Shown here piece by piece: positions 43,798 through 55,264 of a stretch of DNA of 59,508 nucleotides. Position 1 is the first letter of the stretch. Each line of letters begins with the position of its first letter. This DNA is from a virus: positions 1 to 59,508 of the IMG/VR virus record IMGVR_UViG_3300049024_000030; one strand, 5' to 3'. A model generated the notes under the pieces. That model was not told the origin of the DNA, made no database searches, and worked only from the letters and a program-made list of their open reading frames with translations. The position numbers and the translations under genes are program-made.

Positions 43798-44022
43798 ATG
43801 AACGGCGTGATTACCGTCAAAATTGCAGAACTCGCGAAGAAGCGCGGCATCACCACCGCCTACCAGTTGCAGAAGGCGCTTGACGTGCCTCCGGCAATGG
43901 CGGCGAAGCTGTGGAAGGGTGAGTTCAAAATGATCGGCCTCGAAACCCTCAACAAGCTCTGTAATGTCCTGCGCTGTGAGCCTCATCAAATCCTCGCTTT
44001 CAAACCCGATCCGAAAGAATAA
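43798..44022 (+). CDS. Cro/C1-type HTH repressor (74 aa)
   Basis: A small XRE/Cro-type DNA-binding protein: helices TTAYQLQKALDVPPAMAAKLW with recognition-like GEFKMIGLETLNKLCNVLRC and a C-terminal EPHQILAF. It stands alone on the plus strand among minus-strand genes, divergent from the replication operon, and probably represses one or both promoters. Confidence 0.85.
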   Translation: MNGVITVKIAELAKKRGITTAYQLQKALDVPPAMAAKLWKGEFKMIGLETLNKLCNVLRCEPHQILAFKPDPKE

Positions 44023-44048
44023 AAACGGGGCGAGTCCTCACCCGCCCC
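44021..44048 (-). terminator. Intrinsic terminator after SSB gene
   Basis: On the minus strand GGGGCG/CGCCCC with a 10-nt loop is followed by GTTTTTATT, ending the recombination operon before the repressor gene. On the plus strand the same stem also follows the repressor gene. Confidence 0.78.
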
Positions 44049-44060
44049 AACTCAGCTACA

Positions 44061-48388: not shown

Positions 48389-48588
48389 TACGTCCTCCGT
48401 TGTTTCCCGTCGGCGCGGAGAGCATTCAAGCCCCCTTGCTCCCCGCGCCCGGTTTCAGCAGGCTCCCCGCTGCTGCTGAAGTTGAAAGAAAGATCAGCGG
48501 GCAGGACTCGACGCATCCATCTACCGCCCTGCCCGCGTTTCGGGACCGTTGCCCGGGTAGTCCCGAAAGTTGAAAGATCAATGCCCAC
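48388..48588 (-). CDS. Hypothetical protein (66 aa)
   Basis: GTG start overlapping the upstream gene end; ends at TAATG. Composition (many Arg/Gly/Ser) is not distinctive, and no domain is recognised. Supported mostly by coupling. Confidence 0.5.
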   Translation of the reverse strand: MGIDLSTFGTTRATVPKRGQGGRWMRRVLPADLSFNFSSSGEPAETGRGEQGGLNALRADGKQRRT

Positions 48589-50047: not shown

Positions 50048-50548
50048 ATGAAGGAAACTTTCGGACAAAAATTACAACGATGGCGCGAGGCGGCCCATGT
50101 GTCGCAAGCTGAATTAGCGCGCCGGATGGATGTTAGCCGTAATTACATCAGCAATCTTGAGAGGGACTTTTCGCCAACTGCCAAGGGTGGCAAGCCTCAG
50201 CCGAGTGTGGAGACATGCGATAAGATCGCCCGCGCACTGGGGGTTAAGATTGCCGAAGTCAGGCTAGCTGCAGGGTATGCACCGCCCGCAAAATCAGAGG
50301 AAGAGAGTGCAGAAATGAAACAAGAATCCGAACAGGCAGTCGACCGCGCGGCCGAAGGCGCCCGCACTATGGAAATGATTGAAAATTGGGCGATCATGAC
50401 ACCTGAAGAGCAGACGGCGGCGCTTGCGTTTCTCAAGTTTCTCAAAGCGGAAAATCCTGAAGCTCTCAGGATTTTAGGCCCCAGGTTCAAAGTAAAAGAC
50501 TCTTCGGACATCACTCAGTCCGAAGTTGAGGAAACACCAGATCGCTGA
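50048..50548 (+). CDS. CI-like repressor (166 aa)
   Basis: N-terminal XRE domain (KLQRWREAAHVSQAELARRM; SRNYISNLERDF; TCDKIARALGVKIAEVRLAAG) and a helical C-terminal part, but no LexA-type peptidase domain, so it may dimerise differently from lambda CI. ATG at 50048. Divergent from the Cro-like gene. Confidence 0.82.
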   Translation: MKETFGQKLQRWREAAHVSQAELARRMDVSRNYISNLERDFSPTAKGGKPQPSVETCDKIARALGVKIAEVRLAAGYAPPAKSEEESAEMKQESEQAVDRAAEGARTMEMIENWAIMTPEEQTAALAFLKFLKAENPEALRILGPRFKVKDSSDITQSEVEETPDR

Positions 50549-50821: not shown

Positions 50822-51067
50822 ATGGCCAATTTCATAGTCGTTGGCGTGCGCCTCGAATTGCCCAGGGGCGCGCGGTTTGTCTGTATAGGTCAAGTGTTCA
50901 GATCAGATGCGCTTTGTTTGATCAGTATCGACGGGCACAAAACTATCGGTCGTTATTTTCAGTCCCCCGACGGCTGCCGCTGGGTTGTCCAGCCGGGCTG
51001 TCTCGTGCGTATAGCCGATGACGCCGTCGTCACGGTTTTGGGTCCGGTTACGGTGTCATATCCGTGA
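50822..51067 (+). CDS. Hypothetical beta-rich protein (81 aa)
   Basis: Unknown. Strands such as FIVVGVRLELPRGARFVCIG and VQPGCLVRIADDAVVTVLG suggest a small beta barrel. Strong ribosome site (AACAAAGGAGTCCTCGC). Confidence 0.72.
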   Translation: MANFIVVGVRLELPRGARFVCIGQVFRSDALCLISIDGHKTIGRYFQSPDGCRWVVQPGCLVRIADDAVVTVLGPVTVSYP

Positions 51068-51081
51068 TTGAATCCAAATAG

Positions 51082-51153
51082 GTCTCGCGTCCCGGCCCGG
51101 GGCGCGAGACTGAAACCTCCCGCGCCTGGAACCATCCGGATGCCGGGCGCGGG
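51082..51153 (+). repeat. Two strong hairpins upstream of the RNA motif
   Basis: GTCTCGCG/CGCGAGAC (51082-51110) and CCCGCGC/GCGCGGG (51119-51153) follow the 50822 gene. Together with the motif at 51178 they make a ~170-nt structured, gene-free stretch. Either may act as a terminator, but there is no U-tract. Confidence 0.7.
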
Positions 51154-51177
51154 CCGGGCCAATCAATCACATCCACA

Positions 51178-51247
51178 TTGGGCGGCCTGGTCATGCTACC
51201 GCCCAATAAGCCCCACGCCTACTACTCGGGGGAGTCGGGGCGTGGGG
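51178..51247 (+). ncRNA. Two-hairpin RNA motif, copy 1 (novel-looking)
   Basis: Hairpin 1: TTGGGCGG/CCGCCCAA with loop CCTGGTCATGCTA (51178-51206). Hairpin 2: CCCCACGCC/GGCGTGGGG with a loop holding GGGGGAGT (51211-51247). Both loops are conserved in a second copy at 51485 while the stem of hairpin 2 has a different sequence. It lies 23 nt before the 51271 gene, in its 5' leader. Confidence 0.7.
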
Positions 51248-51270
51248 GCGACAACTGAAGGGACACCTCA

Positions 51271-51477
51271 ATGCGAGAAAACGACAAACCCGACTACAAC
51301 GAAAAGCCTCTGCGCGTCGTCGTCATCGACGCCGATATGAAATTTAGCTCGATGGTGATCTTTATGTTGAAGTGGGCGCTCGCCGCAATCCCCGCCATGC
51401 TGATGCTGATCGGCGTCCTGATCGTGGCGGGTTCAATGCTCGGGATACTGAGCCGGCTGGTTGCCGCCCTTCCCTAG
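51271..51477 (+). CDS. Small membrane protein (68 aa)
   Basis: Charged N-terminus, then a long hydrophobic part (WALAAIPAMLMLIGVLIVAG). Preceded by a ribosome site (GAAGGGACACCTC) and copy 1 of the RNA motif. Function unknown. Confidence 0.72.
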   Translation: MRENDKPDYNEKPLRVVVIDADMKFSSMVIFMLKWALAAIPAMLMLIGVLIVAGSMLGILSRLVAALP

Positions 51478-51484
51478 TGCGACT

Positions 51485-51553
51485 TTGGGCGGACTGGTCA
51501 TGCTACCGCTCAGACATCCGGCGCGTTGTTGTCCTGGGGGAGTACCGCGCCGG
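51485..51553 (+). ncRNA. Two-hairpin RNA motif, copy 2
   Basis: Hairpin 1: TTGGGCGG/CCGCTCAG with loop ACTGGTCATGCTA (51485-51513). Hairpin 2: CCGGCGCG/CGCGCCGG with GGGGGAGT in its loop (51518-51553). The distance from the end of stem 1 to GGGGGAGT is 22-23 nt in both copies. Located 26 nt before the integrase start, so it is in the integrase mRNA leader. Confidence 0.7.
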
Positions 51554-51579
51554 ATCGATGTTTTTCACAAAGAGAAATT

Positions 51580-52746
51580 ATGCCGCGACGATACAAAGGC
51601 TATTCCGCCTATCCGTACAAAGAAAAAGCGAGTGGGAAATGGTATGGCCGGCTGGAACTGAAAAAGCCGGACGGAAAGATGAAAGTCTACTCGCGTCAGG
51701 CGAGGAACAAAACCCACGCCAGGCAGATCGCGGACGAACTGGAAGCCAGGTATATAACCGGCGGCACGGAAGCGCTCGACGCCGAGAATATGACGGTGGG
51801 TGAGTTGGCGGGAAGATATAGAAAGGCGAAAGTCGTCGACGCGGCATATGACGGCGGAATCAAGGTGTCTGGAATGATCGCGAAAGCATCAGCCGAAGAC
51901 GAGATAAAGGAACTGCTGGAGTACTGGAACCTGGCGCCGATTCAGAAGATCACCCATGCCGCGATTGAAGAGTATAAATCGCATATACTGAAAAAGCCGA
52001 CGTTTTGGCGCTGGCGCAAAGGCGATAAGATTGTTGAAAAGCCACGCGGGACGCCGCGCAAAATGTCGAGCGTCAATCATTTATTGCGCAGGCTTCGCGC
52101 TATGTTGAACTTCGCGATCCGCAATGGCTGGCTCGTCAAAAACCCGTTTAACGCCGGCGAGCCGTTGATCAGCGACGCCGCCGAGGTTCCGCGCAACCGC
52201 GCCGAACGCGTCGAAGAACTGGACAAGCTACTCGCCGCTTGCGTTGGCAGCCGCGCCTATCTGCGGCCTGTGATCCTGATTATGGCCGATTCGGCGTTGC
52301 GACTTACCGAAGCGAAGCGGCTCACGCGCGCCAATCTGGATTTGGATCGTAAAGTCGCCTATATCGAAGCGCGGAATACGAAGAAGAACAAACAACTGCG
52401 CATTATTCCGTTATCCGATCGGTTGATTGAAGAGCTGAAGGTGTGGGCTGAGAAGGCGAAGACGGACGACGTTCCGATCCTGCAGCAAGGCGACTATAAG
52501 AAGGCCTGGAAGGCGCTGAAGAAGGAAGCCAAAATATCCGACGATCTGCAGTTGAGAGACCTTCGCGGATGGGGAACGTCCAAGATCGCGCGCGCGCTTG
52601 CCGCCAACAATTTGCCGTGGCAGTGGGGCATGAAGGCGACGGGGCATACGCAAACCAAAACCTACGAGCGGTATTTGAAGACGGATGAGGAAATCGCGAG
52701 ACAAACGGGCGAGGCGCTGAAGAAAATTGAAAAAAAAGTTGCGTGA
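51580..52746 (+). CDS. int: Phage integrase, tyrosine recombinase (388 aa)
   Basis: Full-length phage-type integrase: arm-binding/N-terminal parts (about 1-60), SAM-like domain (about 70-190) and catalytic domain. Catalytic Arg241, Lys near 268, box-II R326-D-L-R329 (the usual His is replaced by Arg, seen in some integrases), His356 and nucleophile Tyr365. The start at 51580 follows AAGAGAAATT. attP with a tRNA-Thr 3' half lies 96 bp downstream, which identifies this as the working integrase. Confidence 0.94.
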   Translation: MPRRYKGYSAYPYKEKASGKWYGRLELKKPDGKMKVYSRQARNKTHARQIADELEARYITGGTEALDAENMTVGELAGRYRKAKVVDAAYDGGIKVSGMIAKASAEDEIKELLEYWNLAPIQKITHAAIEEYKSHILKKPTFWRWRKGDKIVEKPRGTPRKMSSVNHLLRRLRAMLNFAIRNGWLVKNPFNAGEPLISDAAEVPRNRAERVEELDKLLAACVGSRAYLRPVILIMADSALRLTEAKRLTRANLDLDRKVAYIEARNTKKNKQLRIIPLSDRLIEELKVWAEKAKTDDVPILQQGDYKKAWKALKKEAKISDDLQLRDLRGWGTSKIARALAANNLPWQWGMKATGHTQTKTYERYLKTDEEIARQTGEALKKIEKKVA

Positions 52747-52778
52747 AAAACCACCGCAGCCACCAAAGTGGAAAAATT

Positions 52779-52803
52779 ATGGCGGCCAGTGACAGGCCGC
52801 CAT
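52779..52803 (+). terminator. Hairpin terminator after integrase
   Basis: Perfect ATGGCGGCC/GGCCGCCAT stem with a 7-nt loop, followed by ATCTCTTGT. Only a weak U-tract, but the position after the integrase stop supports a terminator. Confidence 0.65.
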
Positions 52804-52841
52804 ATCTCTTGTAACTCATTGTCTTTCTTCGGTTTCTTCAG

Positions 52842-53231: not shown

Positions 53232-54428
53232 ATGAGCGATCTGACGATTTTACAAGGTGACTGCCGCGAGAAGTTGCGGGGACTGCCCGACGCCAGTGTT
53301 CATACCTGCGTCACGTCCCCGCCCTACTGGGGGCTCCGCAACTACAACGTTGATGGCCAAATCGGACTCGAGAAGTCGCCGGCGGAATACGTCGCGCAGT
53401 TGGTCGAAGTCTTTCGAGAAGTGCACCGCGTGCTAAGGGACGACGGGACGCTCTGGCTAAACTTAGGAGACTCCTACGCCGGATCGTGGGGCAACTACGG
53501 CGGTCAGAATCGTGGCAATGGGAAGCAGCGCAAGATTGAGAGCGGATCGCAGGCGCATCAGAAAGCATACGATGGACTTGATAACTGGCGTCCGCCAACT
53601 GCCGGAAATCTCGGATCGGGCCTGAAGCCGAAAGACCTGATCGGCATTCCCTGGCGGGTCGCCTTCGCGCTTCAGGAAGATGGCTGGTATTTGCGTCAGG
53701 ATATTATCTGGGCGAAGCCAAACCCGATGCCTGAGAGTGTCGAGGACCGATGCACCAAATCTCACGAATACATTTTCATGCTCAGCAAGAGCTCGATGTA
53801 TTTCTACGACCAGGAGGCCATTAAGGAGCCAGCGATATATGCGGATGACGACCGGATCGGGCGGGCCCAGGCGATCCACAAGAGCGCCCCAGATGGAACG
53901 GTAAACGGAATCCGAGCTCGATCAGATAAGCAGCGGGGGCATTCTCGCCGCCACGCTGGATTTAATGACCGATGGGATCAGATGAAGAAGTCTGAGCAGT
54001 GCTCAGGGATGCGCAATAAGCGGAGCGTCTGGAACGTTTCGACAGCGCCCTATCCCGATGCCCATTTCGCCACCTATCCGCCAGCGCTTATCAAGCCCTG
54101 CATCCTGGCCGGCAGTCCCGCAGGCGGAACCGTGCTTGACCCGTTCGGCGGATCTGGAACCACTGGCAAAGTCGCGCTCGAGCTTGGACGATCGGCTGTC
54201 CTGATCGAGTTAAACCCGGACTACGTGAAACTGATCGAAAAGCGTTGTCGGGTAAACCTGCCGCTGATGTTCGATCTTAACCATCAACCATTAACCACAA
54301 GGAGAACTATGGACATCACCGCATCAACTTCACAAACCGACTTACCAGTCGAACCGGAAACCCCGGCCGACGCCGACACTGCCGAACAGCCGACGGTGGA
54401 AGCGCCGCTCGGTGATCCCGAGGAATAG
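53232..54428 (+). CDS. DNA methyltransferase, SPPY type (398 aa)
   Basis: Motif IV TSPPYWGLRNYN near residue 30 and AdoMet motif FGGSGTTG near residue 310 identify a beta-class methyltransferase; SPPY favours N4-cytosine. Start at ATG 53232 (MSDLTILQGD). After about residue 358 the sequence looks like an intergenic linker read in frame, including AAGGAGAAC and ATG at 54309; the last 39 residues are Pro/Glu/Asp-rich and may be a separate small protein. Confidence 0.87.
   Translation: MSDLTILQGDCREKLRGLPDASVHTCVTSPPYWGLRNYNVDGQIGLEKSPAEYVAQLVEVFREVHRVLRDDGTLWLNLGDSYAGSWGNYGGQNRGNGKQRKIESGSQAHQKAYDGLDNWRPPTAGNLGSGLKPKDLIGIPWRVAFALQEDGWYLRQDIIWAKPNPMPESVEDRCTKSHEYIFMLSKSSMYFYDQEAIKEPAIYADDDRIGRAQAIHKSAPDGTVNGIRARSDKQRGHSRRHAGFNDRWDQMKKSEQCSGMRNKRSVWNVSTAPYPDAHFATYPPALIKPCILAGSPAGGTVLDPFGGSGTTGKVALELGRSAVLIELNPDYVKLIEKRCRVNLPLMFDLNHQPLTTRRTMDITASTSQTDLPVEPETPADADTAEQPTVEAPLGDPEE
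54309..54428 (+). CDS. Possible separate small acidic protein in the same frame (39 aa)
   Basis: Inside and in frame with the methyltransferase, an AAGGAGAAC ribosome site precedes ATG 54309. The product MDITASTSQTDLPVEPETPA... is highly acidic and unlike the enzyme. Either an internal start or a gene whose upstream neighbour has lost its stop codon. Confidence 0.4.
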   Translation: MDITASTSQTDLPVEPETPADADTAEQPTVEAPLGDPEE

Positions 54429-54437
54429 AAACGGCGG

Positions 54438-54480
54438 CGGCCGGTATGAATCACAACGACGATCCTCATACCGGCCGTTT
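54438..54480 (+). terminator. Terminator after the methyltransferase
   Basis: Perfect 12-bp stem CGGCCGGTATGA/TCATACCGGCCG with a 16-nt loop, followed by TTTACC. Confidence 0.7.
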
Positions 54481-54562
54481 ACCGCGCCGAACGTTAATCC
54501 AGGACGCGGCGAACGGATTCTACCTTTCGCCGCTCCTTTCTTCCAAACAGGGAAGGGAGCAT

Positions 54563-55264
54563 ATGACTCAACAGGAAATCGAGAAGAAGCGGAAATATTT
54601 CTTCATGGGAATCGCCGCACTCGCAACCGCAATTACGCTGGCCAGCGCGAGCGCGACTTACGCGATCAACGAAAAGAGTTTTGTGGACTGGAAGGAATGG
54701 CAGAGCGTGCTGGCGTTTTTGGCCACGGTGGGAACTGAGGCGACTTTCAGTCTTTCCCTCTACGGCGTGACCTATGCCCTCACCGGCGCCACGGAAAAGA
54801 GACTTGGCGTTGCGCTGCTCTTAGGCACCGTCGCGGTAATGGCGGCCAATTACACGATCCACCACAAGCTGAACATTCACGCTTCACTGAGCGACTGGCA
54901 GGTGGCGTATGTGCAATGGATCGGGCCTTTAAGCCTGTTCGGGATTCTCTTGTTGATCGTGAGCATTATCGTCTTCAACCACGACGCGAAGAAAAGGGCA
55001 CAGGATAGAGAGTTCGCATTCGCCGCTGAGCGCAAAGCGATGGAGTGGCGGCAAAAGCAACTCGAATCCGCCGCCTTCGAACAGCACATGGAGCAGTATC
55101 AAGATCAGGTATTTGAGGAAGCTAGACGGTCTTTGAAGCTCTCTTCCCCGCAATCCTTACCGGGTCCGGCTTACGGATCGAGTCAACCGCCGCGTATCGG
55201 CTACCGTCCGGACGAGCGCGATGAGGTGGACTTATTCCCAAAAATTCAACCGAACCGGGACTGA
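54563..55264 (+). CDS. Four-pass membrane protein (233 aa)
   Basis: Four hydrophobic helices (about 14-36, 48-74, 79-98, 118-138), then a charged helix and a disordered Pro/Ser tail. Start at ATG 54563 (GGGAAGGGAGCAT). Function unknown; could be a channel-like or superinfection-type protein, without evidence. Confidence 0.75.
   Translation: MTQQEIEKKRKYFFMGIAALATAITLASASATYAINEKSFVDWKEWQSVLAFLATVGTEATFSLSLYGVTYALTGATEKRLGVALLLGTVAVMAANYTIHHKLNIHASLSDWQVAYVQWIGPLSLFGILLLIVSIIVFNHDAKKRAQDREFAFAAERKAMEWRQKQLESAAFEQHMEQYQDQVFEEARRSLKLSSPQSLPGPAYGSSQPPRIGYRPDERDEVDLFPKIQPNRD

Follow-up and report, generated by a model that had tools for sequence, protein, structure and literature searches.

The window, as the analysed DNA is called here, spans the 59,508 bases of an IMG/VR virus record to which no host is assigned. 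Based on its gene set (terminase, portal, major head protein, a DnaB-like helicase, RecT-like genes and an integrase at 289-1134), the record is a predicted temperate tailed phage. A rightward gene run consists of an HTH repressor gene (start near 50048), an 81-aa ORF (50822-51067), a gene for a 68-aa membrane protein (51271-51477, + strand), a tyrosine integrase gene (51580-52746, + strand; Phage_integrase 4e-16, phrog_1) and a DNA methylase gene (53.2-54.4 kb). The part of this run that holds the repressor, the small ORF, the membrane gene and the integrase is the lysogeny-side operon. The gene after the methylase probably starts at 54563, and a second HTH gene (49948-49712) is the first of the leftward genes. 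One phage record contains two different tyrosine integrase genes, at 289-1134 and at 51580-52746 (+). The membrane protein found no match in Pfam or PHROG; its family shares the core VVV.DV.M.F.SMV.FMIKWALAAIPA with 50-69% identity across 10 phages, and in several of these it makes up the C-terminal end of a protein whose N-terminal part has a zinc-ribbon-like CxxC motif.

Two copies of a two-hairpin element are encoded on the sense strand of the operon, at 51177-51247 and 51484-51555 (71 and 72 nt). Such a duplication had been described in an earlier note on this DNA; both copies were located and folded, and a 31-nt repeat with 90% identity (51175-51205 and 51482-51512, 307 nt apart) marks their 5' parts. 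In each copy a hairpin with a 9-bp stem and a 13-nt loop precedes a second one with a 10-bp stem and a long loop. Hairpin 1 of copy 1 (51177-51207, +) encloses the loop CCTGGTCATGCTA at 51186-51198 and is separated by 3 nt from hairpin 2 (51211-51247, +), which is built from the stem CCCCACGCCT/GGGCGTGGGG and a 17-nt loop with GGGGGAGT at 51228-51235. Hairpin 1 of copy 2 (51484-51514, +) has a 9-bp stem with two G-U pairs and one compensatory swap, and the 12-nt core of its loop (51494-51505) is identical to that of copy 1. After a gap of 1 nt follows hairpin 2 (51516-51555, +), with the stem ATCCGGCGCG/CGCGCCGGAT and a 20-nt loop that carries GGGGGAGT at 51536-51543. The loop 1 sequence CTGGTCATGCTA and the loop-2 motif GGGGGAGT are common to both copies, as had been claimed, and the loop motifs of the element can be written as CUGGUCAUGCUA and, in hairpin 2, GGGGGAGU. 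The spacing of the two loops, previously given as equal, differs by one nucleotide: GGGGGAGT follows loop 1 at 29 nt in copy 1 and at 30 nt in copy 2. Exactly 2 nt separate GGGGGAGT from the 3' arm of stem 2 in both copies. Within the window, CTGGTCATGCTA occurs in the two copies only, even if one mismatch is allowed (0.07 expected), and GGTCATGC and TTGGGCGG are absent elsewhere on the + strand. A coding origin of the repeat was considered and rejected; the frame LGGLVMLP spans both copies but no gene passes through.

The differences between the copies were compared with the predicted pairing. In stem 2, 7 out of 10 pairs are changed on both sides and all ten positions pair in each copy. That stem 2 differs between the copies had been recognized in the earlier note, and its extent is here corrected to 10 bp each (CCCCACGCCU/GGGCGUGGGG and AUCCGGCGCG/CGCGCCGGAU). 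When the loop motif was held fixed and the flanks were shuffled with composition preserved, stems anchored 2 nt past GGGGGAGT reached 10 bp or more in a fraction of 0.0004 of the shuffles for copy 2 and 0.001 for copy 1. In hairpin 1 the basal A-U pair is swapped to U-A and two other pairs are changed to U-G and G-U; the C-to-T change (G-U) reported before is present and is accompanied by an A-to-G change (G-U) and by the two-sided basal swap. The summary that the stems vary while the loops stay constant applies to hairpin 2 and fails for hairpin 1, where stem and loop are both conserved. Compared with dinucleotide shuffles, the two copies fold with z values of -3.7 and -3.1. On the + strand 23 out of 23 stem pairs form in both copies, and on the - strand 20 and 19, a deficit that is caused by the G-U pairs. 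Pairing by G-U on the coding strand only points to an RNA made from the + strand rather than to a DNA palindrome. Overall, the two-hairpin element is real, duplicated and structured, and it is very probably a real RNA, on arguments drawn from two copies in one genome.

The position of the copies relative to the neighboring genes is leader-like. Between copy 1 and the ATG at 51271 (membrane protein) lie 23 nt, and between copy 2 and the ATG at 51580 (integrase) 24 nt, which agrees with the earlier placement of each copy in the leader of a different gene, and the distance from the preceding stop codon is 109 nt for copy 1 and 6 nt for copy 2. The near-constant distance to the start and the variable distance to the stop suggest that each copy tracks its downstream gene. 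The hairpins do not include the ribosome-binding sites, and inspection by eye showed no alternative pairing with them. Neither copy is an intrinsic terminator in the sense of a hairpin with an immediate U-tract: no U-tract lies directly 3' of either copy, the TTTTT of copy 2 is located 5 nt beyond the stem, and neither copy appeared in the output of the terminator scan. A hairpin with a T-run does exist in this phage, on the minus strand at 43990-44060 beside the SSB gene. A stand-alone small RNA, which had been proposed as an option, is unlikely because neither a promoter-like site nor a U-tract terminator was found on the + strand around the copies.

The window was scanned for the geometry of the element (a 9-bp/13-nt hairpin, a spacer of 0-4 nt and a hairpin of at least 10 bp with a 16-21-nt loop). 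Besides the two copies, one more place was identified, 48568-48497 on the minus strand. This possible third unit (48497-48568) precedes the leftward gene 48388-48089 as part of its leader and consists of a 9-bp/13-nt hairpin, a 1-nt spacer and a 10-11-bp hairpin. In 60 shuffled versions of the window this geometry never appeared, and 884 kb of other loci contained it once (looser limits raise the background to about one per 60 kb). By the shuffles, the third unit would be a chance find with a probability of no more than a few percent, and by the empirical background with one of about 7%. It folds better as the sense strand of its operon than as the opposite strand (-45.2 and -35.0 kcal/mol; z -4.0). 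Its loops have no sequence in common with those of the two copies, which leaves its kinship to them unproven. Its flanks (48585-48475) contain the near-direct repeats TGATCTTTCAACTT and TGATCTTTCTTTCAACTT, as if the unit had been inserted or duplicated. Additional hairpins are found within the rightward operon. Hairpin A (51081-51111, +; 14-bp stem, no U-tract), at the junction 5' of copy 1, and hairpin B (51116-51158, +; long, GC-rich, no U-tract) are located between the preceding stop codon and copy 1, and together (51081-51158) they form the stablest 77-78-nt stretch found in the window (-54 kcal/mol). A strong hairpin array with one stem of 12-13 bp occupies the junction between the methylase and the next gene (about 54430-54535, +; 54395-54535 folds with z -4.2), and a further hairpin without a U-tract is located at 52778-52804.

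No Rfam 15 family matched the window at the gathering score, and permissive settings gave chance-level matches only. Four pattern scans of IMG/VR also produced chance matches only: 18 matches to a loop-plus-stem 16-mer, none with a matching hairpin; four to loop 1 and GGGGAG at a spacing of 20-45; one to the GGNCTGGTCATGCTACC pattern; and 35 to TGGTCATGCT...GGGGGAG, the best-pairing four of which represent one sequence that was read as coding. A 20-base pattern had no match in 84,980 genomes. A covariance model built from the two copies (R1) recovers both at 92 bits and scores the rest of the window at about 10 bits or less, with the register of hairpin 2 wrong and stem 2 poorly described, so that searches with R1 rely mainly on sequence and hairpin 1. 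Used with this misregistered hairpin 2, R1 gave only chance-level matches among 791 genomes of two phyla (399 from the phylum of Nguyenibacter and 392 from the phylum of Singulisphaera) and nothing credible among the related phages. The top R1 match (35 bits) lies antisense within an ATP synthase beta-subunit-like gene, pairs poorly and was rejected. Ten terminase-related phages (70-79% identity) contain no DNA match to the element region, and the sole integrase found among the terminase relatives lacks such a leader. Queries with the integrase and the repressor identified no relatives in IMG/VR, and none of the 10 IMG/VR phages with a related membrane gene carries the element upstream of it. 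The earlier note had named a lack of homologs with covarying stems as grounds for rejecting its proposal, and outside this genome none was found; judged from the sequence sets searched, which may lack records very close to this genome, the element would not qualify as a conserved structured RNA family with such homologs. As an orphan regulatory RNA the element is credible but unproven; it has no known relatives and is present in two copies in one genome. One genome of the Singulisphaera phylum contains, at 1501-1570 of the locus just 5' of a response-regulator-like gene, a hairpin with the loop CTACTCCCGGGGGGAG that resembles hairpin 2; hairpin 1 is absent and the resemblance is probably due to chance.

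Kept pairing, the polarity of the G-U pairs and the near-constant start distance make a functional structured leader RNA the best reading, as the earlier note had proposed, with the expectation of homologs left unsupported. The explanation tentatively put forward here is a structured RNA that acts in cis within the 5' leaders of the membrane gene and the integrase gene. A trans-acting factor (a host small RNA, or an RNA-binding protein of the phage or the host) would recognize the stem and loop of hairpin 1 as well as the GGGGGAGU loop of hairpin 2, and in this way translation or stability would be set jointly for the membrane protein and the integrase. Stem 2 would be a mere scaffold that places its loop beside hairpin 1, leaving its sequence free to drift. 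Such a factor, its action on translation or stability and the joint post-transcriptional control of the two genes are inferred. The counterpoint is that the evidence consists of two copies in one genome, with no homolog in the searches of Rfam, IMG/VR patterns, genomes and related phages; the placement of the ribosome-binding sites beyond the hairpins also counts against it. If the reading is correct, this would be a compact leader RNA of a temperate phage through which expression of the integrase is tied to that of a small membrane protein, and its two natural copies, in which the loops are fixed and the stems free, indicate which bases to mutate.

Strong hairpins that lack these loops lie at several further junctions of the operon, and generic hairpin functions are therefore possible. 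Under such an explanation, which is unlikely, the hairpins would be intergenic structures with a role in protection or processing of the operon mRNA (nuclease barriers or RNase III sites) and the repeated loops would be a by-product of a past leader duplication. The strong U-tract-free arrays at 51081-51158, about 54430-54535 and 52778-52804 fit this idea, but it does not account for the identity of loop 1 over 12 nt and of loop 2 over 8 nt in the face of an almost complete change of stem 2. The close proximity of the copies to the tyrosine integrase gene, and the fact that hairpin 1 is an inverted repeat in DNA too, would also suit binding sites for the integrase or the repressor (an attP core or operator palindromes). 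The cores of tyrosine recombinases span 6-8 bp, however, and are exceeded by the 13-nt space between the arms; the T-G mispairs of copy 2 break the DNA palindrome while keeping the RNA pairing, and stem 2 conserves pairing rather than sequence, so that a DNA-level element is quite improbable. No attC-like core boxes, as in integron-like cassettes, were seen by eye. Two hairpins with conserved loops in the immunity region of a temperate phage also recall the c4 antisense RNA of phages P1 and P7 (RF01695), a small structured RNA with conserved loops that act on complementary targets. The copies differ from c4 in that they have no Rfam match to it and that the phage contains no complement of loop 1 elsewhere (12 nt, up to 1 mismatch). 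The lack of a complementary site makes c4-type action unlikely, and together with the missing promoter-like site and terminator it leaves an antisense or small RNA very improbable.

The main rival to a leader RNA, itself unlikely, is a put-like processive antiterminator or anti-pausing element that consists of RNA only: the nascent two-hairpin RNA would bind the elongating RNA polymerase, and would enable it to pass the hairpin-rich junctions of the operon and transcribe the integrase and methylase genes. The put RNAs are about 70 nt long, form two adjacent stem-loops, occur in two copies per phage and are located up to about 270 nt from early promoters (PMC9378689). In HK022, put suppresses termination and pausing via the zinc-binding domain of the RNA polymerase beta' subunit. 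The two copies described here share the size, the adjacent hairpins (1-3 nt apart) and the presence of two sequence-related copies on the sense strand of an operon in a temperate phage; the third unit, sense-oriented in the leftward operon, and the rarity of the geometry in shuffled and other DNA also support the comparison. However, putL (found in the HK022 record via a primer from PMC9378689) and putR (found via its similarity to putL) show no sequence similarity to the copies, with local alignment scores that were reached by 13-84% of shuffles. HK022 carries one promoter-near put copy per early operon, whereas both copies here are on the rightward strand, on one transcript, more than 1 kb inside the operon and just 5' of start codons. 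A processive effect would not need two copies 307 nt apart on the same transcript, each copy tracks a start codon, and the third unit has no common loop sequence. Thus the copies may work like put, by analogy, yet they are not classed as put RNA. A new geometry-defined class of RNA-only antiterminators or elongation-control elements, unrelated to put and with members in the leftward and rightward operons, is improbable; if the element acted on the polymerase and not on the ribosome, it would be an addition to a very short list of RNA-only antiterminators. Among known RNAs linked to integrase genes are the STAXI motif, which forms tandem pseudoknots near integrase and SSB genes (PMC2864571), and other candidate RNAs (PMC8040213). 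The copies are simple hairpins rather than pseudoknots and match no Rfam family, but they share with these RNAs the arrangement of a repeated structured element near an integrase gene.
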